From: Ceratodon purpureus
Lineage: Eukaryota; Streptophyta; Bryopsida; Pseudoditrichales; Ditrichaceae
DNA length: 64,000 nt
Assembly (NCBI GenBank): GCA_014871385.1
Contig: CM026421.1
Span: forward strand, 17,281,048 to 17,345,047
Direction: 5' to 3'
A model generated the notes under the pieces. It made no database searches. It was not told where the DNA came from and was given only the letters and a program-made list of their open reading frames with translations. The first letter of the stretch is position 1; every line of letters starts with the position of its first letter. Below are positions 7,840 to 62,926 of the stretch, piece by piece. Position numbers and translations under genes: made by a program.

Positions 7840-10800
7840 ATGGGGATGAGCGATGGTGACGCTGGTTACATGGTGGGTTTTTTTTTCTGGCAGCTTGGGA
7901 ATTCTGTGGACGATGACCGAGTGTTCGATGGAATGGTTCATGTGGTTGGTTGGTTGTTTGTTTGATCGGCAACGTGAAATGGGAGAAAGAGAGTCTCTGT
8001 TTTGGAGGATTGAGAAGTTTCTGTTCTCTTTTGTTGGAGTTAGGGCTGGACGGCATTGGGGTTAATCGTTGTGTTTTGTATAGGTTTTTAAAGCATATTG
8101 ATGTCTCCGGCACTTGTTTGGTTTCTGTGTAGTTAGAGCTGAGTTTGATCAGCAGACGTCCAGAGATGGTATTTTTGTTGACAATTAATGTCATTGTATC
8201 GAAGGGCAGCCTACTGCATTTTAGTGTTGGCGAATCTGATTGCGCTCCTTATGGATTGTTACCAAGCAATTCATCGATGGTTATGATCGGCGATGGTTTT
8301 GTGCCGATGCTTGTTTAGCTCGATTTGATGTGCCGGAATTTCGTGATGGCTGGTGTGCCCGTTTTAGTCTTGTTGTGTTTGACTGACGTCCCAATATTTT
8401 CCTTTTTGACAGGGTGCATATGATCCCAGCTACACTTCTGGGTAGGTCTTCTCAGCTTCATGCCTACCTTTCCTTCCTATCTCCCCTTGTTATCAACATG
8501 TGAAGAAACATTGATGTCATGCATTTGGTGGTATTTTCAGATGTCATTTTCTTGTCTAGTCGGGTCTAGCATTCTTACATTTCTTTGCTCGTTTTGTCAG
8601 ACAATTGTGCTTACTCAGACTTATCGTTATGCATCATATTTTTATACGTTTAGAGTCTTATCTCATTGCAACCCGCCGATTTTGCTTATCTTGCTTGGTT
8701 TGCAACTTGCAGGGATGATACCTTTGCCGATATACACAACCTGGACCATTGCATTAAATACCTCAACCAGTCTTTAGTCACATTTGGCTTTCCTTCTGGA
8801 CTTAATTTGTACTCCAGTGAACCTGTAAGTGCTTTAATCGTCCGATTGTTTCATGATTCGTTTGGGTTTACTTGTCGTTTTGAGACTCACCGTGGTCAAT
8901 GCTTTAGTTTCTGATAAGTACTCTTGATTTGTGGAAATGATGACGTACGTACAGGGTTCAATCGTGCGAACATGTAACTGCATATACGCCATGATTCAGC
9001 AGCGGCAACGGGACATTGAGTATCGCGAAACAGCCAACGAGACCCGGCAGAGGTGCTAGCAGAAGCCCGTCATAGTAGTTATTTTCCTGTCGTTGAGGGT
9101 TTAGGTTGAATGCGTTGCGCGCATCTTATGTTTGAAATAAACAGATTTGTCTGTTTTCTGTAGAATACTTTTAGAGTTCGGGTTTGGACCTTATAACACT
9201 CCCACAAATCATGCTGAAAATTTAGGATGTGCTGTGCAGGCTTATGTCAGATATGTCAAGGCTTGAAGCAAAAGTGGAAAGACTGACGGACCAATTAGCT
9301 AGTAAGGAACGTGAATTGCAAGCAATCACAAGCAAGGTATTCTAAACATTCAATGATAAGAAATATGTCTATCCTGATCATGCGTACATGTTACATTGAA
9401 AATATTGTTGAGGATGACATTTACAGCCAAAGTCAAATCAAAGCATTAATCACTGTACTGTTGTTTGATTACCTCAATTCTAGCGATAAATATCTTAGTA
9501 AACGATCTTTACTAGAATTGACTGATGTGGTATCTGTGCCCAATGGGCGAAATCGTGATTGTCACTCGTTACATTCACCAACCTGAATAGAATTCAGTTA
9601 GTATCCCCCATGATTTGTTTTACTGGTGTCCTGAATGTAGTATGTTATTTTGTTAACAGGAGCAGAAGGCAGCAGCTACCAGCAGAGCGCAAATTGAGAG
9701 GCTTCAGCACGAGAAGGATGAGTTTCAGAGAATGGTGATTAGTACACAGGTGAGCAGCTTTGCATAAAAAGCCTTTGATATAGAGCTAATACAACTTGTT
9801 GTTTTTCAATGCTTGGCATTTTAGCGGGTCATTATTTCAAATCAGCTTCAATTGCCTTATCTAATATGTTGAATGGGTTCTGCCAGCAAGTAAAGATCCA
9901 ACAGATGCATGAGTTGAAGAAGAAGGAGAAAGATTATATCAAGTTGCAGGTATAATGGGAACCCTTTCGATGCTCCTTAAGGTCTTTCCATGTTGAGATC
10001 TTGTTTTCTTGAAAATGTTTCATACGTCTCTAAGGTGATCTGAACCCATATTGGTTGGTTCAGGAACGATTGAATCAAGTCTTGATGGAAAAAAAGAAAG
10101 AGTCCAAGACCGGTATCGAGATTATGAATTTATTACAGGTAACCATTTCCTTCTTTGGTTAGTGAAAGTTTCCTTCCTAGATCAGATTTATGCCCACAGT
10201 TCTTGAAGGTTCTCTGAAAAATGTTTTAGTTCAGAGAGCTAAAAATGTTGTGATGTAGAATGCTGGGCCGAAATATAATGTTGATCAAAAGCTTTCACTT
10301 TCATTACCCACATGGCTTTCGAATGTGAATTCATTATAAACAGCGTATGCATATAGTGACTCTGAACTGCCTCTTAACTCTGAGCAGAAGGAGGGAAGGC
10401 AACGGGGCACTTGGAACACCAAGAAAGCGGATGGTGATTTCTACAAGATGATTGTACGAGACTCCTTTTACTATTCTTGAACAGATGGTGACTCTAAAAC
10501 AGTTAATCTACTATTAATTAATGAGTGTGACCTCTCTTACTTCTTCATTTTTGTGCAATTTTACATTAAGTTCAGATGTCATAATTTTCTGCACTTGAGT
10601 GTCGTCTGTCTTGCTTGAAATCCTGTGATTTGGATTTACATATAGTATGGCATGAAAATTTCGATTTTCAAGGTTGTTGTTCTATGTATGACTAAAGGTT
10701 TTTAGACAGGATATGGTATTTGGACCTTGACTGAATAAATGATCTCTGTGCAGGTGGACGCATATGAAACCAAGAAGCAAGAACTTGTGGCTGAAAATTC

Positions 10801-52121: not shown

Positions 52122-52157
52122 CATTAGGGGAAAAATGAGGTCTCCTACGGGCCTTGT
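52122..52157 (+). repeat. Left terminal inverted repeat of the inner DNA element
   Basis: It begins CATTAGGGG and contains GGTCTCCTACGGGCCTT. It matches the reverse complement of 62891-62926 at 28 of 36 positions without gaps. The inner 17 bases match 16/17 and the outer seven match 7/7. Confidence 0.75.
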
Positions 52158-52995
52158 AAGGCAGCCCGGATTAGGTGGGCTGCCTGCCCAAAACCCCCTC
52201 TGTCGCTGTCAGCAGGGGTCTGAAACGCTGCCCGAAGCGGACGGACGGGAGTTGCGTGGCCGGGTTTTGCCTCGTTGGCGAGAGGGCGTGGACGGTGGTT
52301 GTTGAGCGCCAATCCTTGGGATTTATTGCTCGGCGATTAATGAAGTGCCTCGATCCGTTGCCTCGATCCACGGATTGTTCGAGTTGTTGCCACAACGGTC
52401 TGGGCGCGATGGCGCCACCGGCTCTACGCCGTTCAGCACCAAGAAAACGAAGCGCCCTGTTCTGCTTCAAGCAAGTCGTTGTTGGCACTGTGAGACGCAC
52501 AATCGTATGTGATTTGCGAGAAAGATTCCGAGTGGCGATGGCGCCCCAGACCGGAGGAGCAAGATTGAGATTGCAATTCATTTCTTGGCAGCGTCCGCTG
52601 GCAGCGACGGCGGCGAGGGGTTGTTCTCAGTCGGCGACCAAGGTTTCAACGAAGAGATGAAAACTGATGTACTTGAAGGGAAGGTAAGTTAACCTAATTC
52701 GATAAACCTTTGTGGGGTGTTCAGGGGCTACTGGGTTTTTGAGCAATTTGAATTTCGATTTCATTAGCCCTTGCTGCCACAACGGCATAAGGCAATGTAG
52801 GTTTCGTGGTCGATAGCGCTTGTAGATGCCACGCAGGTCTATCGAATTAGGTTCGGAGTATTTGAGGTTGTGAATTCAGTTTTTCATTGGGTGTAGGAGG
52901 TGTCCGAAGATCAGAACAAGTTCTCTCGAATAACAGCAAATCACCAAGTGTGACCAGGGGAGATTCAATCAAGATTACCGACTATAGGGTCCACG
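52158..52995 (+). other. Leader region of the inner element, with subterminal hairpin
   Basis: GGCAGCCC at 52160-52167 pairs with GGGCTGCC at 52177-52184, giving an 8-bp stem just inside the left terminus. Two copies of the GCTGNCAGC motif follow (52205, 52597). The remainder is probably promoter and 5' leader of the transposase-like gene. An open frame at 52175-52660 has no recognisable similarity and is not called. Confidence 0.55.
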
Positions 52996-55900
52996 ATGGC
53001 AGCAAGGGCTGAACGAAGCAATCAGTACATTCCCCACTTTGCACTGGACACACGCTATGCCCCGGTCATGAGACGAGGTTCTACGCAAGTGGAGCTGTGC
53101 ATGAGGAGCTCGTTTCCAACACGGAGGTTGCGTGGAGACACGAACATTGACTTGTGGATCAATGGAGACATTTACCCTGTTGACCCAATGACAGGGAAGC
53201 CACCTCCAATCAAGTCGCTAAAAGAGTTCGTTGAATTCATATGTCATGGAGAGCAGGGTCTTTGCGGATATACACTCAGGCTGCTGGATCATTGTGTACA
53301 TGGTTCTACACAGGAGGAGACGCGGATCCAGTTGGCACAGTTGAGCGAAGAAGTGCTTCAGCTTAGAGGCGAAGCTCTGGCCAGCAACTCAAGGGCAGCC
53401 CAAGATGTCCAAATGGGGAGAATGCGTTGCCTTGAGTTAGAGAAGAAATGCAGGGATTTGCAAGCTGAATTACAGGCTGTCCGTGATTGCCATGCCCAAA
53501 GGGTGGAGCAATTGGAGCGCCATGTGCGGGGTCTCCAAGAAGACGTTGACCGCTGCCAGCGGAGGGCCAGTTTCGAGAAGGAGACCCCCATGGGCATGCG
53601 AAATAGGAGGAGGGCTCTCAGAGGGATTCACGAGTTAAAACCTGGATCAGGTGGATCAAAAGCAAGAGTGAAGCTTGTGCGGACAGTGCTGCAACCAGAT
53701 GTGGTGCAGTTTGTTGTCGAAAGGAACCGAGAGAACCGGAAGTGCTCTCGACTGCGGGGGGATAAAGAGTCCCAAAATAGGACTGCAGTAGCACTAGCTC
53801 GAATTTTGTCACGGCATGAAGGTGTAGCGCTCGCTTCTCAGCCTGCAATGGCACATGTTCAGTCAGATATTGCGAAAAATGTGCTCAAATCGATTGGTAA
53901 GAGTATTGGACCGGACAAAATTCTTGCTGCTTGCGACCAGGCAGGGGTTTCCCATCGGGGATATGGTGCTCTCTACAAATCTGTGAAGGCTCCCATTGCT
54001 GCTCTGAACAAAGGAGTCTCCGGGAGTATTTTGCCGAGCCCCTATCACGTGAAACTGCTTCGGCAGGAGTTAAATGCAAACCTGCCACAGTATATTGGCG
54101 AATACTACCATGCTGAAGGTCGACTTATGCTGCCAGCAAGTTCTAAGAAGAACAAGAAGTCCGAGGACATGGTAAAGGAAGTCGTTTTGACTGACAAGAA
54201 TTCCCTATTCGCAGACCTTGAGGTGGTCCAAAGGAGCATGGTGATCTTCTACGGCATCACGGAAGAAGGTAACGTAATCACCTCAGACTGTTGTTTTCAG
54301 AGTTTGCTGCCAGCAGGGTTATTTATCAATTAACCGTGACTTACACATCCACTCGCCATGTTTCCACAGAGTTAAGAGGGGCACCGCTGGTATTTGTCAT
54401 GAAATTGAACGAGGCCGAGATTGTCAATGGCAAGAAGTTTGAACGGGTCAGCATCACATTGATGAATAGGGCGCTCGACCCAAACATTTAGAGAAACCAT
54501 GCCCTGTTTTTCTCAGTCCAGTCGGAGCAGGAAATCTGGCCAGTGGCAACCTTTCAAGTGGAAAAAGAGTCCTACGAAGTTCTGTCGTGGATATTTGGGA
54601 AATCCAAATTTCCATCTGTGATTGCAGCACAGTCCAGTGGCGAGAAACTCACGGTCCCTGAAGTTGGAGAATTCCATGTGGAGTGGCATCTCGCTGCGGA
54701 CATGAAGACGATCAAGTGTATGTACGGGCTTCAGTCGGGGCCGTCGTGTGCGATGAACTGCATATACCGCGAGCAGAAGAGGGCTAAGCCTACCGTAGGG
54801 ACAGCAAGCCAGGCGAGTGCTGCCATCAGAAAACGTGGGAAACCGAACTGGGTGGGGGGACTGTTTGCCAACTCTGTGGAGCCAGAACCATGTGACATGC
54901 ATGCACATACAAGGTGGAGGCCTATCTTGCCAATTCCGTTGCAAAGAGTGCACATTTGTACACTTCACGCCCTAGTTCGCCTAGCGGAGAAGATTGTGCA
55001 TCAATACATCATTTATGTCTGGAACATACAAGATCAAAGACTGAGGGCTACAGCCATAGAGCAAATGGAGAAGTCCTTGTCAGCTATCGGGGCTCACGGT
55101 GGCAATGTGGAGATTAGAAAGGATCCGAAACTGAGTGGCAGCACAGGGAATGTGCCACAGAAGCCATCTTTCAGTGGGGTTGTTGCTAGCAGACTATTTA
55201 AACCAAGCGTATGGTCTGGAAACGACAAGGCCTGGAAAGACATATGTAAAGCAGAGAGCAATAATAGTGGTGGCGGTGCACATCGTAGGGCAAGGGCTGC
55301 TATGTGGCAAGCCTTTGAAGAGGTTCTACCATATTTCAGCGGCTTGGTGCTGACAGCAGAACAACGACTCCAGTTCAAAGGGAAGATAGAAACGTGGGGG
55401 AGAACATTTTTGGAGGCCTTCGGAGAGGAGCATGTGTCGCACTACATGGTGAGTTATATGAACGAGTTTTGGGATGAATTAGGGGTTGATGGCTGACCTC
55501 ACTTTTGTCAATTCTCTATCCAGGACTAACCTTGGAGTGGCTGTTGACAGCATGTAATTGTCAGGTATGGCAGTTGGTTTGTGGAGGAATACGGTAGTCT
55601 GGCCGTATGGAGTTGCCAGGGTATGGAGAAATCCCATCATCAAGCGAAGGCAGCGAATCAAGCGCATACAGCTCACGGTGGTGGCAAAGAGCGCATCAGT
55701 GTTATTTTGCAACAATTCCAGCATTGGTACCGAAATATACAGCATCGGTATAAGAAGAAATTAGAGTCCACCAGGGTTCTCAATACCCCGGATGATGAGG
55801 CAAGATTGGAGGCTACGCGTAGAAGGCGAGAACAATGGCATCGATCAAATGCTGCCAGGGCTTTGGAGAATTGGCGGTCAAGGCGACGGCCTGTTGGCAA

Positions 55901-56090
55901 AGCTTGGGTGTGTCATAACACCGTTGGAGGTGATGGAGCCAACAATGATCAAGCAAGAGGATCTGCCAACGAAGATGACCCCGGGGAGGAGGGCAACAAT
56001 GTGGATCTTGAGGAAGGACGCAACTCAACTGACGGTGACGACGCTGGCAACAACGTGGACAGCGATGACGCTGGCAACGAGCCTGTATGA
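52996..56090 (+). CDS. Putative transposase of the inner element (RNase H-like, DDE-type suspected)
   Basis: Proposed exons are 52996-54268, 54370-54446, 54522-55448 and 55551-56090; about 938 residues in phase. The N-terminal third is followed by coiled coil (about residues 100-195), then a basic stretch, then an HRGYGALYK block. Later blocks resemble a repeat-borne family I have seen in several eukaryotes but cannot name: HLAADMK (candidate first catalytic Asp) followed by C-x3-C-type cysteines, CTLHALVRLAEK, HYM joined to HVIVRYGSW, then YGSLAVWSCQGMEK (candidate Glu) and HGGGK. The tail is Asp/Glu-rich. The third exon would otherwise be preceded by an in-frame TAG (54489-54491); a 75-bp intron with a good pyrimidine tract removes it. 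The donor there (CGG|GTCAGC) is weak, so a true lesion is possible. The transposase role is inferred from position, size and motifs. Confidence 0.6.
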
Positions 56091-57892
56091 ATTGAGTACA
56101 AATTATGCGTTCTAAACTCATTGGATGGACATCTATAATGTAGCAAGTTTTTTATTTTTTTTTATTTTTTTGATCGGAGTAGACAGTGGATCTTCTTTAA
56201 CATGTTTTTTGGTTTCATTCTAGAATAGCCATTTACGGATAGATTTATCAAAAAATGAGGATTTTTTCGAGCAATTCCCTAAAATGGCTATGCATTGCTA
56301 TGTTAATCTCCATAATTATTCAAGAGGCACCCATTGAGAAGGTAGTAACTCCACTGACGGAGAGGTCGCTGGCAGCAAAGAGGATAGTGACGACGCGAGC
56401 AATGGCCGTGTGTGATTTGAGAGCTCTGTGTCTTAGTAATTAATTTGTAGCTATGTAGAATGTGGCTGCGAACAATGTTTTTTTTTTTTTATTGGGTTAG
56501 ACCATGGTTCTCCCTTAAACTTGTTTTGTGGATAACTCACGATAGTGCCCACTCCATGCAATTAGTAATCTCCTTAATTAATGGGTCTTAGTAATCATAT
56601 GTACCGGTCCCACTAAAATTAAGATTTTAATTTCTGAGATGATTTTCTAAGTACCCACAACAAATAGGGATGTGTGGTTTAGGGCCATGGCAATGATTTC
56701 CATGGAGTGGCAATTAAGGAGGATATGAGAGCTTCCCACCAACTCCGTAACCTCCCTTCATTAAACAGTACTTGAGACCCTGAACCCCCCTAACCAAGGA
56801 CGCAGAGGTGGTTGACTCCAGCACGGGTTCCCCTCTCAGTTCTTCTCTTCTTCCCACACGCCGCACGTGGTTGACTCTTGCACAAGTCCGCGCCTTCTTG
56901 CTGTCGAGGCCGCTCCCCTTGCTTCCAGCAAGCGCGCGAGCTTTACTTCGTTTTTCAATTGGAGCTGTGGGTGCCGGAGAGAGACCGTGGACACGAAGGA
57001 GGGCGTCTTCGTGCCGTTGCTGATCGGGAGCACGTGACGCTTAGGGCAGCAGCCGAGGAGTCTAAGAAACCGACTGCGGGCTTGCGGAGTGCAGCTCGAA
57101 GGAGCTGCAGCGTGCGGCGCGGGCCGTGGAGGAGGGGGCAGCGGAGCTCGGGCGCAAGGGACGACCTGCGACTGAGCTGCAAGGAGCTGAAGAGGGAGCT
57201 CCATTGCACGCTCGCTCAGGCGCAAGGAGCTGCGGAGGCGCAAGGGGTAGCGAAGAGCTGCGAGGAGCTGCGGAGGCGCAAGGGGCGCGAGGAGGCAGAA
57301 GGGGCTGCGGGGGTGCAAGGGGCTGCGGAGGCGAGCTGCGGAGGGCAGCTGCAGAGGCGCAAGGGGCTGCGGGGGTGGAAGGGGCTGCGGAGGCGAGCTG
57401 CGGAGGGCAGCTGCGGAGGCGCAAGGGAGGAGCGGAGGAGGCGCGCAGCGGCGAGTTGCGGAGGAGCAAAGCCGTAGCAGGGGTGCCGCGAGGCGCAAGG
57501 AGCGGAGCTGCAGACGCGCAAGGGGCGAGTCGCGGAGGCTGAAGAAAGGGTGAGCTGCAGAGGCGCGCAGGGGCGAGTTGTGGAGGCGAACATTTCTGGA
57601 GGCGCAAGAGACGAGCTGCGAGGCGCGAGGGGCGAGCTGGGGAGGAGCAACAACAATTCTGCTTCGGACTTCGGTGAGGTAAGCTACTGGTTTTCAGCTC
57701 TCTCCTCCGAGCCTCCTCGCATGGTTTTTTTTAATTAGCTGTTGGAGTGAATCGGCCATGGTGTATTCGGAGTAGACAGTGGTTCAGCCATGGCCGCCGG
57801 AGTCCTTAGTTCTACAGGATTTTTGGAGTGAAAATGTAACTAGTCTAATCCGCAAGAATAATACCCTGTCCGTTTCTCTCCTTTCAGCTGCC
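56091..57892. other. Intergenic part of the inner element and leader of the RING-like gene
   Basis: 56091-56800 is AT-rich with T runs and no gene. 56800-57700 is GC-rich, made of GCTGCGGAGGCGCAAGGGG-type words with internal tandem duplication. Open frames occur on both strands here, but they reflect the repeat composition. A pyrimidine tract and TTTCAG at about 57880-57887 suggest a leader intron ending just before the ATG at 57893. Confidence 0.55.
57301..57424 (+). repeat. 62-bp tandem duplication in a GC-rich leader
   Basis: Copies at 57301-57362 and 57363-57424 start GGGGCTGCGGGGGTG and end AGGCGCAA, differing at two positions. Shorter related words fill 57180-57650. Confidence 0.88.
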
Positions 57893-59936
57893 ATGCGCGA
57901 TCCCCCAATCGTAAAACGTGTTGTTTTTGCACTACCAGCGCCAGGGATGTCGAGCCGTAGGAAGGGAAAGGCCGCGGCTTCTCGGGAGGAGGATCGCACT
58001 GAGAAGAAGGAGGCCGTCGTGAAGAAGGAGGTCGTCGAGCTTGCTGACAGCAAGGAGGATGCCAACGATGTTGAGACGCCATGGGATGATGCGTTCGACT
58101 TGGAGGGCTTACCCCCTGCACTTCATGCACAGCTCCACCACCTCGCCCCATTTCTGCTGGGTAGGCATGCTGCGGATTACGATGAGGACTTCTTCGCCCG
58201 CACCTTGCAGCTCTCCAACAAGGGGTTGAAGTTCAGTGACCTCAGCAGCGAGAAGCACTGCAGGAAGAAGGACTTCATCGACAGATGGCCAGAGCGTTCT
58301 TCTGGTCGGCACTACGTTGCTAACTGTGAGGATCCGGAGGCCCAGAGGAAGTACTTGGAGATGTACCGGTGGACCTGTGGAGGTGACCCCAACAATTGGG
58401 CATTCGGGACCACCTTCCTTCGGGCTTGCCACCTCTACTTTGAGGAGGGCGTGGATGTCAACTTCGCCCAGAAGGCGGAGGCAATTGTAAAGGGGCGCGA
58501 GAAGCTGCCAGGGCGTAATCCGCAGAAGTTGACACCCCCGGCCTTGAGGGAGCAGATTGAGGCCATCATCGACTTCCTCGCAGGCCACGTCCCCGGTGCT
58601 GTCAGCAAGAGCAAGGGAGGAGGGGCGGCTGCGAGCGGAGGAGCCAAGGCAGTCGGAGCCACCTCCAAGGCCATCACGGCCGCGGAGGCGAAGAAGGCAA
58701 GGGGTCCTAGATCCGTGCCTGCCCCTGTCAAGGCCGTGGTGGAGAAGAAGGCCGTGGCGCTGAAGAGGGCCGTGACGACCCCTGCTGCCGCTGCCATCAA
58801 GGTGCAGCCCTTGGTGGCAACGGATCCGAAGCAGGTCCTGGAGCAGCAGCGCCTCAAGAAGCAGTCCTTGGAGGCGGCACTTCTGAAGGTGGAGGCCAGC
58901 CGGGACCGCGTGAAGGTCGACCTTGCAACCCAGCGGGACTACATCAAGGCCAAGGAGGCCGAGGAGTCCAAGCTCTACGACGACATCTTCTCCGCCCGCG
59001 AGGCCGCCAAGAAGGCCGCGGCTGATGGCAACGATCAAGAGAAGAGGCGCTTTGATCAGGCGGCCCGCTTAGGCCAAGACAAGCTGGGGCTTGCAAGCAA
59101 GGCACTCCTTGAGGCCCAGGCCCGCATTGACAGGGTCTACAAGAAGTTGGAGGAGATGGAAGCCGATGAGCAGAGACGGCATGCTGAGGTCTCCGCGCTG
59201 ACAGCGGAGATCTCGGCCTTGGAGTTGGCATCAGCTTTCTTGCGGCCGCAGAAGGTGTTGGCTCGTTATCCCCGGGAGTTCCAGGTGTTGCCAATAGCCC
59301 TCAACGACCCATGCCCCTTCTGCGAGCGTTACTTCGTTGACACCTGCTGCGTGCCTTTGTTCTGCGGCTGCTTGGCACATCCTCATTGTATGTTTGAGGC
59401 AGTCTTCTCTCAAGACGCCCGATGCCGTCGATGCGAGCGGGGGATGACTGGAGGGTGGCTTGGGCAGTGGGGCTTCGACCTTGACTCCAAGGCCGCGGAG
59501 GAACTACGCCTCACGGAGGAGATCCTTCTGGCCGAGCCCGCTTCACCACGTGCTGGCAGCAAGAGGCCCGCTGCCCCCTCAGTGGCCGCGCTTCCGTGGA
59601 AGAAGGCCAAGGGCGACCAAGGTTTGTGGCCCCTCATCCCATCTACCCATTTCTTGTTGCCTGCCTTGTTGTTACATTTACATTTTCTTGTTTTCTAACT
59701 CTTGTTTGTTGCTAGCAACTGCAGAGGATGCTCTCCCCGACTCAGACTCCCTGGCGTTCGATCCCACGCAACGCTCTCCTGAGGAGACCCAGGCAGCCCT
59801 ATCTGGAGATGGGAACAAGGACTCATCCGCCACCACGCAAGGACCACCTGAAGCAGAGAAGAACGAGGACGACACCAACATGGAGGGACTGTCGAGCCTT
59901 GTTGAGGCAATTGCCACAAACGCAAACGTGGAGTAG
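57893..59936 (+). CDS. Coiled-coil protein with RING-like Cys/His cluster, carried by the inner element
   Basis: Exons 57893-59621 and 59716-59936 give 649 residues; the join is in phase. The start is the first ATG after a likely leader-intron acceptor; the ATG at 57947 is an alternative. Residues 15-55 are basic/acidic and nuclear-signal-like (SSRRKGK, EKKEAVVKKE). A compact region about 60-220 contains Trp-rich segments. An Ala/Lys-rich linker follows, then coiled coil about 310-450. Residues 474-514 form CPFC, CC, FCGC, HPHC and CRRC in the order of a RING finger, but the Cys expected two residues after HPHC is missing. The C-terminus is acidic. RING proteins often bind E2 enzymes; whether this one does is unknown. 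No close family is recognised. Codon use is GC-rich, unlike the host genes nearby. Confidence 0.65.
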
Positions 59937-61044
59937 ATTCCCACCTTGGATAGTTTTGTAGGCCGGGTTAGGGGTTTGCTGGCAGCGACTTCTGGTCCGG
60001 ACTTTTATGGGCCACCTTTCTTAAACTTTTCCGAACTTGAAAACAATTTGCCTCTGGACTGCCATGTCTCTTTGAAAGATATGGCATTCTTGTAACCCTT
60101 CCTTTTTATTCGCAACTGTATTTCTTCTTTATTGTGGACTGCCGACAGCAAGGGCTGCTCTTTAGCCACCATTTTATCTTTTGAGCTGTTGTTCTCTTCA
60201 AGCCCGCGCTGTCTGAGAGCATTGTGCCCTCATCGAAGTTCTTTCCTTTGTATTTCCCTTCTTCTATGCAATCAGGTTGCATTTTTTATTTCACCGCTGG
60301 TATTTTTTTTTTTCCTTATTTCATTATTCGCCACCATGGTCCCTTTCAATTTTGGCCATTGTTGTTATTTACCATCTGCGACCTACTTCATCTCTTATGT
60401 ACAACTGTTTTTTATTTTTATCTTGTTCTATTAGAATCAAGCGTGGTTCTTTTTTTATTTGCAATCTTCCTTTTTTCCTCTTTGCTGGCACCAAGGGCTG
60501 CATTATGCCCGCCATTGCCAGTTCAGAGCACCAGGTTCACGAAGGAGCCAGCCTCTTCGGAGGAAGTAAGAAACTTTACATTCCTTCCTAATTACTTCAT
60601 ATTTGTCAAGTGCCAAACTCCATTTTCTGCCTCTGAAGGGTCATGTGCTCTATTGTATGCAATTTTTTTTCTTTTCTTATTTTGCGCTGGCAGCAGGCTC
60701 CACCGTCAATGGCGCCACCACAAGTTCAAAGCAATTTTGCGATTCAGACCTAGGCCCTCTGAAACCCCGGCCATTCTTCAGACTTCTTGTATTTTATTCT
60801 TTTTTTCATTTTGCACCCTAGGATTCACCACTGGTAATTGTAACTGTTTTTCTTCTCTATTTCTGCTGGCAGCACGAAGATCAAGGGTACTTCAAATTTG
60901 CCTCCATATAACACGTTAATAGAGGATGTCCCACAGAAAGTCCTGAATGGTAAGCAGAACCACTACCTGAACTCGCTAACGACTTCGCGAAGAACCTAAT
61001 GACTTCCCACATACTGTGACTACCCATCCCCGAAATCACTTTTC
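59937..61044. other. T-rich region of the inner element between convergent genes
   Basis: Several loosely similar modules follow one another: a pyrimidine-rich run, then a GCTGGCAGC-like word, then AAGGGCTGC- or GGCTCCACC-like sequence (around 60146, 60485, 60686, 60865). It could hold the 3' end of the RING-like gene, small exons, or a decayed tandem array. No coding call is justified. Confidence 0.5.
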
Positions 61045-62350
61045 CTACAGCTCCACAATCTTCATCCTTTTGGGAACCGTGACATTTGCAGCTGTAAGGT
61101 GTCTCTCATGGCGCTGGTTGATCTGCATCCAACAAATCCTGTCATATTCGTTTGCTGGCAGCAAGGAGCTCTGAACAGCCAATTCCCAACACATCAAAAC
61201 GACTACATGAATTCGGCTAGACTGGTACCTTTTTCTCACGAACACCGTTGGCCTCTATCAAGACCAGGTTGTACTGCCCAGGTACGTCATCTCCAAGTGC
61301 CATTGCAATTTCGTGCCGCAGGTGGAATACTGGCCAACCCTTGCCAACTTCGAATGTTGGTAGCAAGTTCCCCCTAAACATACAAGACACTTCCACCATC
61401 ACCTCCTCTGGTAGGTGATCCAACGCTTCCCACTGACTGTTGGCAGCCCCCCTATACCTTGTATACATGAACCTGGTGTATAATGTTTGTCTTCCCACGT
61501 GATAGCGGAAAACAATGCTGGTCCTGTTGGCAACGCACTTGATGACATCTTGGCCAATGTGGAACTTCTCGTTCCACCCTGGGTTCATTAGACTGCTCAG
61601 CAGAGCCTCGGATGGACTACTCAAAACAAACAATGTAGGTGTCCGCCTAATGCTGTCAGCAGCTACCGCAAACAAATCAACCATAACATGGATTGGCATA
61701 AACCATTGCTGGTAGACGAAGCTGCTACCAGTTGTTGCTTTCATAGCATTTGCAAAATCGAGAGTGAGCTTTGTTCTAAACGCCTCAGATGTGTGCATGT
61801 CTGGCAAAGGCCACTCCACATCGTTGAACCCTGGAAGCGGGAGTGCTTCAACCTTCCCGTACAGCGTGTCACCTGTTGGAGGCAAATACAGACCACCAAG
61901 GAAGAATGTACCTATGTCCAGCAACTCCGCGTGGCTCTGTCGATTCCGTGTTGCCTCCCCAATCTCAACATGGAGCACAAGAATGGGACCAAGGATAGAT
62001 GCAGGATGTACCCAATCCTCCGAAACCGACGCGTACAGGTAGTTTGCCATTCCCAATTTGGTTGCTGCCTCCGCAGGATCCAAGCGCAGATGCCTTGGTT
62101 GATATGCATGTTGCACAAGCACCTTATCGAGGTCGCATGCTCCATGCTCCGTGGAGATCCAAGAGAAATCTCTGATCTGCGCTTTGAAGGCCCCCCGAAA
62201 ATTTTCTCCACCATGTCGCCTTGCCTCTCTACCCCAAGGCCCATCCGACGCTGGTTGCAGCATAACCCATGAATCATGGGGATCACTACAGCTAAACCCT
62301 AAATCATGGGGATCTTCATGAAGTGGTGGGCTGTAGTGGTCTGTATTCAT
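61045..62350 (-). CDS. Unrecognised protein of the inner element (minus strand)
   Basis: Proposed exons, in transcript order: 62350-61229 and 61170-61045, 415 residues. The 58-bp intron is flanked by AAAAAG|GTACCA and TTCAG|AGC and is in phase. Without splicing the frame ends three codons later (61217). No known domain is recognised. The first 45 residues are Asp/His/Gly-rich. A middle region has strand-rich segments (ILVLHVEIGEA, GTFFLGGLYLPPTGDTLYGK, FMPIHVMVDLFAVAAD). Residues about 325-374 alternate strands around a helix (VMVEVSCMF, VFHLRHEIAMALG, YNLVLIEANG), a pattern loosely like a beta-grasp fold; that is only a guess. It is convergent with the RING-like gene. Length, lack of stops and a plausible splice favour a real gene. 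Confidence 0.5.
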
Positions 62351-62415
62351 GAAGAAGGTGGGCTGTAGTGATCCCCATGAATCATTGGAAGACCACTACA
62401 GCTAAACCCTAAATC
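62269..62415. repeat. Compound direct/inverted repeat with telo-box motifs at the minus-gene start
   Basis: A 25-bp direct repeat occurs at 62281-62305 and 62391-62415 (GA(T/C)CACTACAGCTAAACCC and onward), each copy with the plant telo-box AAACCCTAA. ATGAATCATGGGGATCACTAC at 62269-62289 is inverted at 62365-62385 (20/21). The cluster covers the ATG at 62350 of the minus-strand gene and probably its promoter. Confidence 0.85.
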
Positions 62416-62890
62416 TCTACTGCACAATGCGTGACCACCCACAACCGAAATCGAACAACTTCGCCCAGCCTTTGGAGGCCTCCACCGCTCCATCCTGCTT
62501 GACAACGCAACGACGACAACTCTCTCAGGGGAACGCATGAGGTTCGGAATGACCGTTGGCAGCATTTCGACATCAACACCTTGTGCACGTTGCATCTCAA
62601 AGGGGGAGCGGCAATTCGATTTCGGTAGGTGGCATGTGGAGTCAGTTTCGCAGGCGTTCATAAAGCCCACCACCGCTGACACCCTTCTGCAATGCTCGAA
62701 TTCCGTGCGCGAAGAGGCTCCGTTCTCGACCTGCGGGACTACACGCGCGGGGGAGGGAAGCCTTCCTGCGCGACTATTGGCCGGACCCCCCCATTCGCGA
62801 TTTGGCTCGCTTTTGGCGACCTGCTGGCACAGTTGGTGCCAGCACGTAAAGTGCACGGGCATGCCCAAAACTTTGGCACGGAAAGCATGG
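62416..62890. other. Right subterminal region of the inner element
   Basis: Unassigned GC-rich sequence. A perfect hairpin, TGCTGGCAC (62822-62830), loop AGTTG, GTGCCAGCA (62836-62844), lies about 80 bp inside the right terminus and contains the half-site GCTGGCA in both arms. A minus-strand open frame at 62347-62997 crosses the element boundary into copia and is treated as spurious. Confidence 0.55.
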
Positions 62891-62926
62891 AAAAGGCCCG
62901 TTGGAGACCCCAAACTGCTCCTAATG
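62891..62926 (-). repeat. Right terminal inverted repeat of the inner DNA element
   Basis: It reads AAAAGGCCCGTTGGAGACC and ends CCTAATG; the reverse complement matches the left end at 28/36. Copia reverse transcriptase coding resumes at 62927. Confidence 0.75.

Follow-up and report, generated by a model that had tools for sequence, protein, structure and literature searches.

A dispersed palindrome in a moss DNA transposon as the predicted binding site of an element-encoded dimeric protein

Why would a DNA transposon carry the same short palindrome in its exons, in a putative intron and in its spacers alike? The question is raised by a 64-kb stretch of the Ceratodon purpureus genome (contig CM026421.1, positions 17,281,048 to 17,345,047; hereafter the window), which holds a nested DNA transposon that we call W. 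An earlier note on this DNA had reported 16 copies of the palindrome YGCTGNCAGCR in an inner element and proposed that an element-encoded dimeric protein binds them. An exact recount of the window confirmed the 16 copies and their coordinates (Table 1). They do lie inside the inner element, but the element itself is longer than the span of its sites. The explanation that we favor, and to which we give an even chance, is that a dimeric protein, predicted to be encoded by the transposon, binds DNA at YGCTGNCAGCR, a site that would be used at the element end in transposition and internally in anti-silencing, in a manner similar to the VANC proteins of Arabidopsis.

The core of the motif, GCTGNCAGC, starts at 16 positions from 52205 to 61652, all within W, and no perfect copy was found in the other ~53 kb of the window. 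Dinucleotide shuffles of the window (n = 100) contained a mean of 0.64 and a maximum of 4 copies. When only the element was shuffled, by Markov models of orders 2, 3, 4, and 5 (300 shuffles each), the means were 0.32, 0.76, 1.37, and 3.59 and the maxima 3, 5, 6, and 11. The excess is thus real against all shuffles, although the expectation of 0.16 given in the earlier note was too low (shuffle means of 0.3–3.6). When palindromes of two four-base halves were scanned (gap of 0–8 bases, at least three different letters per half), the most frequent one in any of nine further 10.5 kb blocks (positions 1–50500) had 5 copies. All 16 cores in the window are preceded by a pyrimidine and followed by a purine, as had been noted.

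Sites with one mismatch are also in excess in the element (12 versus 1.6 expected; the other 53.2 kb holds 7). Nine of these 12 are altered at one of two symmetrically paired bases, 3 or 9 (19% in shuffles), with the caveat that two of the nine (56042 and 56069) share one short protein repeat. Decay by deamination was dropped as the source of these mismatches, five of the nine in the window being transversions. A half-site model was dropped as well: there are 51 half-site matches (shuffle mean 14.5), 32 of them belong to the 16 full sites, and the 19 left over are close to the shuffle mean. Because the excess takes the form of full palindromes rather than halves, and because change is tolerated symmetrically, a protein of two-fold symmetry is suggested. 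The motif symmetry fits the dimer proposed in the earlier note; that the element itself encodes this binder is what we infer.

Protein constraint does not explain the distribution well. Seven sites fall within four plus-strand open reading frame (ORF) pieces, in frames 1, 2, 2, 0, 0, 2, and 0, and synonymous codon shuffling of those pieces produced a mean of 0.37 and a maximum of 4 sites (5000 shuffles). With gene 3 included, eight of the 16 sites are coding, in all three frames, and eight lie outside, at densities of 1.34 and 1.66 per kb (binomial P = 0.80); the earlier description of copies in exons of different frames, in introns, and between genes stands. In W the spacing between sites is even (P = 0.0027). 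The use of all frames, the similar density in and out of exons, the similar core number at mostly other positions in a diverged lineage, and a nearly fixed site at the left end (the last two described below) support constraint at the DNA level rather than on the proteins.

The left end was studied in other copies of the element. All genome-wide counts refer to one genome of 362.5 Mb, that of the window; the copies compared in detail were picked manually, some loci having been located through their sites. A first search, which required CATTAGGNG and then a perfect site with its start at base 68–98, returned 698 places; among the matches listed, the required site stood at base 82 or 83 in 96 of 100, one of the four exceptions not resembling this element. 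A second search required no site, only CATTAGGNG and, further in, CGCTGCCC, which favors well-kept ends but does so equally for all windows of sequence compared. It returned 314 places, and 46 of the 55 matches listed in the stretch common to both lists have the perfect left site. For comparison, the commonest string in 45 other windows of the same shape (bases 10–64) occurred in a median of 23 of the 55, and in no more than 28 for 44 of the 45. Such a constant left site argues for a part in transposition. At the right end of W, a one-mismatch site mirrors the left site exactly (chance about 0.002). The mirrored site was dropped as a general rule, since it holds for the W lineage only. The earlier note had likened the motif to the subterminal motifs of CACTA and hAT elements, but spread over the whole element; here one site is nearly fixed near the left end, its right-end mirror is confined to one lineage, and the sites as a whole are element-wide.

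These observations also bear on the possibility, which we consider rather unlikely, that the motif has no role beyond transposition and the control of transposition. End synapsis would then depend on binding of the sites by the transposase or by a TNPA-like partner, and internal copies would titrate the protein or regulate expression, unrelated to silencing. The nearly fixed left site is in keeping with this, as are seven short non-autonomous derivatives (318–451 bp) that have the same ends and hold one to three perfect sites each, although their loci were found via a site. However, end synapsis needs no 15 more sites over 10 kb, exons included, and no matching fixed right-end site exists in E and E2, two diverged sister copies of the element. 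We prefer anti-silencing to titration or regulation for the internal sites because, of plant systems with an element-wide motif, VANC is the one best known to us.

Across the genome YGCTGNCAGCR occurs 6960 times, compared to 963 for the control palindrome YCTGGNCCAGR, which has the same letters; a reversed control motif occurs 346 times, but it contains CpG and is therefore less fair. Within the window the motif is far denser in the element than elsewhere, so that the equal density named as a refutation in the earlier note was not seen, and among the genome-wide matches listed the sites cluster at element copies. Such clustering, together with the lack of perfect sites in the rest of the window, makes it improbable that the sites are bound by a host factor for transcription, chromatin, or replication which the element exploits, even though no DNA-binding domain is recognizable by Pfam in the element proteins. 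With exon 2 of W's gene 1 as query, 125 of 989 first-look candidates were scored, each at 90–100% identity; with the same exon of E, 129 of 1012 were, both lineages among them, and with gene 2, 75 of 2142. Family elements measure 10.6–11.5 kb and have three genes, with at least 125 scored gene 1 copies. Contig C6 (110.5 Mb), perhaps a sex chromosome, holds many of the listed copies that are more diverged and bear stops.

Comparison between copies indicates both conservation and turnover of sites. Copy A, a near copy of W, has all 16 window sites and three further ones. Between W and A, core bases are kept at 128 of 128 positions, versus 4532 of 4680 (96.8%) in flanks within 150 bp (Fisher P = 0.034); outside the core bases, A differs by T to C at base 1 of two sites and by a changed center at one. 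Against the distant copy E, four of the 16 sites of W retain the whole eight-base core (0.59 expected; P = 0.0012), and at aligned sites core bases are kept in 68 of 96 cases versus 839 of 1442 nearby. W, E, and E2 contain 16, 16, and 15 GCTGNCAGC cores, those of E and E2 mostly at positions other than W's, and 12, 23, and 33 one-mismatch sites (1.5, 1.2, and 1.0 expected); no other palindrome of this form is as frequent as GCTGNCAGC in any of the three. Between these two lineages, sites turn over while their number stays. A similar number at changed positions suggests selection on coverage.

The earlier note had allowed for selection or amplification at the DNA level. Constraint is supported, while amplification is clear for one pair of sites and perhaps applies to a few weakly similar spacer sites. 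A passive origin, in which the motif would have been spread by local duplication or by mutation and would have no function, was already disfavored and seems to us very improbable. In its favor, the flanks of the pair 56042/56367 are clearly duplicated, and there is weak similarity around 60140/60483 (74% over 34 nt) and 60673/60852. However, 56042/56367 is the sole pair to stand out among 12 site positions compared (next z ~4), no reported tandem array contains any of the 16 sites, the core is kept in copy A, and the left site is retained where flanks differ. As only one pair is clear among these 12 positions, tandem amplification was dropped as the chief source. The end of gene 1 is itself duplicated locally (56042–56377), one copy having a perfect site and the other a one-mismatch site. 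A GC-rich short-repeat array upstream of gene 2 (57218–57640) is without a perfect site, and E and E2 have 22-bp arrays at a comparable place. Last, the motif is most improbably an RNA signal, namely a 3′ splice site (GCTGNCAG|C): sites 60685, 60864, and 61153 are preceded by T-rich tracts and could pass for 3′ splice sites, but a splice signal would account neither for the palindrome's left half nor for the sites at the left end and within long ORFs.

Several results weigh against the binding-site explanation and its VANC-like extension. The left site is surpassed in constancy by one of the compared windows of sequence, which lies inside the inverted repeat (52 of 55), and the mirrored right-end site was not found in E or E2. 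Among 30 fetched W-lineage pieces (3951 bp) the count of perfect sites ranges from three to six. Core protection was not detected between E and E2 (102/104 versus 2487/2579 in flanks, P = 0.58) or between W and E2 at three sites in regions above 70% identity (21/24 versus 435/599, P = 0.16). Between E and a third-lineage copy on C6 the figures are 78/88 and 1784/2179; the fetched part of this copy has a left site with one mismatch, six sites with both flanking bases, and only seven cores. Nor were cores protected in two old W-lineage copies (98/104 versus 2374/2540), so that the conservation across copies expected from the earlier note holds for near copy A and not for these; decay at the flank rate is how dead copies would behave. 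The flanking pyrimidine and purine, present at 16 of 16 cores in W, accompany 13 of 16 in E and nine of 15 in E2. Even spacing is absent in E (coefficient of variation 1.00) and E2 (1.21), and was dropped as a general rule.

If the binding-site explanation is correct, the end site would belong to the complex that carries out transposition, much as subterminal repeats bound by TNPA do in CACTA elements. Along the rest of the element, the same protein or a sister of it would occupy the internal sites and protect the element from silencing, the part that VANC plays in VANDAL21. Candidate binders are the coiled-coil N-terminus of the gene 1 product, the gene 2 product, or the gene 3 product. VANC anti-silencing proteins recognize the motif YAGTATTAY in Arabidopsis VANDAL21 (PMC5735166, PMC10398659). 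VANDAL21 resembles W in being a plant DNA transposon with several genes and many internal copies of an element-specific short motif. VANC motifs occur in non-coding regions as tandem repeats, and a palindrome is mentioned in neither paper; in W, by contrast, half of the sites are exonic, none is in a reported tandem array, and the motif is palindromic.

Other known systems share part of these features. CACTA/EnSpm elements have a short repeated motif near their ends that is bound there by an element protein (TNPA), and their termini begin with CA (PMC2613891). However, W ends in CATTAGG rather than CACTA and lacks the 3-bp target-site duplication, and the motif is subterminal in CACTA elements, whereas the W family has one nearly fixed left site plus sites throughout. 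Spy elements of the PHIS superfamily are inverted-repeat DNA transposons without target-site duplication (PMC4482050), but the flanks of the insertions inspected lack their AAA|TTT target, and W is ~10 kb long with three genes; they use a Harbinger-type DDE transposase, and gene 1 of W has no Pfam match, with which a remote relation is compatible. PlavakaB, of the CMCT group, has ends (5′-CATCA...TGATG-3′) that resemble CATTAGG...CCTAATG, but Plavaka elements make target-site duplications of 2–3 bp, and the W element has no Pfam match (PMC12730594).

Table 1. Features of the transposon W, its sites, and its copies. Positions are those of the window unless a contig (C) or locus (L) is given.
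Feature	Position	Strand	Description
Nested DNA transposon W	52122..62926	+	10,805 bp; ends set from other copies
Left terminal inverted repeat	52122..52157	+	CATTAGGGG...
Right terminal inverted repeat	62891..62926	-	
Gene 1	52996..56090	+	exons ~52996-54270, 54372-55490, 55563-56090; putative transposase, N-terminal coiled coil
Gene 2	57947..59936	+	exons ~57947-59620, 59717-59936; RING-like Cys/His cluster
Gene 3	61217..62350	-	377 aa; no known family
Site 1	52204..52214		CGCTGTCAGCA; base 83 from left end; nearly fixed in family
Site 2	52596..52606		CGCTGGCAGCG; 5′ of gene 1
Site 3	53551..53561		CGCTGCCAGCG; gene 1 exon 1
Site 4	54128..54138		TGCTGCCAGCA; gene 1 exon 1; all 8 core bases retained in E
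Site 5	54305..54315		TGCTGCCAGCA; putative gene 1 intron
Site 6	55348..55358		TGCTGACAGCA; gene 1 exon 2
Site 7	56367..56377		CGCTGGCAGCA; within local duplication of gene 1 end
Site 8	58042..58052		TGCTGACAGCA; gene 2; core retained in E and E2
Site 9	58597..58607		TGCTGTCAGCA; gene 2
Site 10	59196..59206		CGCTGACAGCG; gene 2
Site 11	59551..59561		TGCTGGCAGCA; gene 2; retained in E and E2
Site 12	59977..59987		TGCTGGCAGCG; 3′ of gene 2
Site 13	60685..60695		CGCTGGCAGCA; T-rich spacer
Site 14	60864..60874		TGCTGGCAGCA; T-rich spacer
Site 15	61153..61163		TGCTGGCAGCA; spacer
Site 16	61651..61661		TGCTGTCAGCA; gene 3
One-mismatch site	62834..62844		base 83 from right end, mirrors site 1; not found there in E/E2
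Copy A	C1		10,834 bp; near copy of W
Copy E	C1:3181365-3191993		10,629 bp; 58% identity to W over 9618 aligned bases
Copy E2	C9:5092218-5103742		11,525 bp; sister of E
Short derivatives	L003:1334-1651; L008:2841-3247; L011:3926-4272; L012:3618-4017; L013:4474-4874, 8812-9241; L014:2323-2773		

W is inserted into a copia-type reverse transcriptase gene. Its flanks join in frame as ...ADTPKS|YSGLRLQRALYGLKQAG, and by eye the reverse transcriptase frame is continuous, with no loss or gain. W has no target-site duplication, and none was seen in any of 12 insertions inspected by eye. The ends were first estimated from a 17-bp imperfect inverted repeat, and other copies place them 17 bp further out, at CATTAGG...CCTAATG in the window copy (CATCAGG in copy A). 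Exon borders, the RING-like label, and the name transposase are our reading of the ORFs. The gene 1 product, with its putative N-terminal coiled coil, resembles a transposase, a name that is our judgement because no element ORF matches any Pfam family above cut-off. In W, gene 1 has an in-frame TAG and its ORF ends at 54491; E2 has one stop each in the alignments of gene 1 exon 1 and gene 2. Third codon positions are the most divergent between W and E2 in all three genes, and the protein identity of gene 1 exon 2 is 82%. A structure model of gene 1 exon 1 alone had a mean pLDDT (predicted local distance difference test) of 41, only the coiled coil being near 70.

The best PDB sequence matches of three queries (E = 0.0031 to Linker L1, 0.85, and 0.88) were taken as chance. 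In viral contigs, two queries had no relatives and two more had pattern matches but no relative; a near-mode search of plasmids found none. Among the matches listed in literature searches, nothing concerned this element, and GCTGNCAGC, TGCTGNCAGCA, and YGCTGNCAGCR appeared in none; TGCTGGCAGCA appeared in papers unrelated by title. With no Pfam match to place it, the family looks unclassified and possibly belongs to an unclassified superfamily.

On a broader reading, which we put forward tentatively, this would be an unclassified plant superfamily without target-site duplication whose members carry a dispersed palindromic self-tag, exons included, that is read by their own dimer. One code would serve both the ends and anti-silencing, and selection would keep up the number of tags even as individual positions are gained and lost. 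With VANC-type anti-silencing one may ask how recognition of a short motif by a protein takes effect along an entire transposon, and how the motifs come to accumulate. In this moss the motif is sharp, abundant, independent of tandem repeats, and present also in exons, in at least two many-copy lineages within one genome, and so site selection, turnover, and the reader protein would be measurable.

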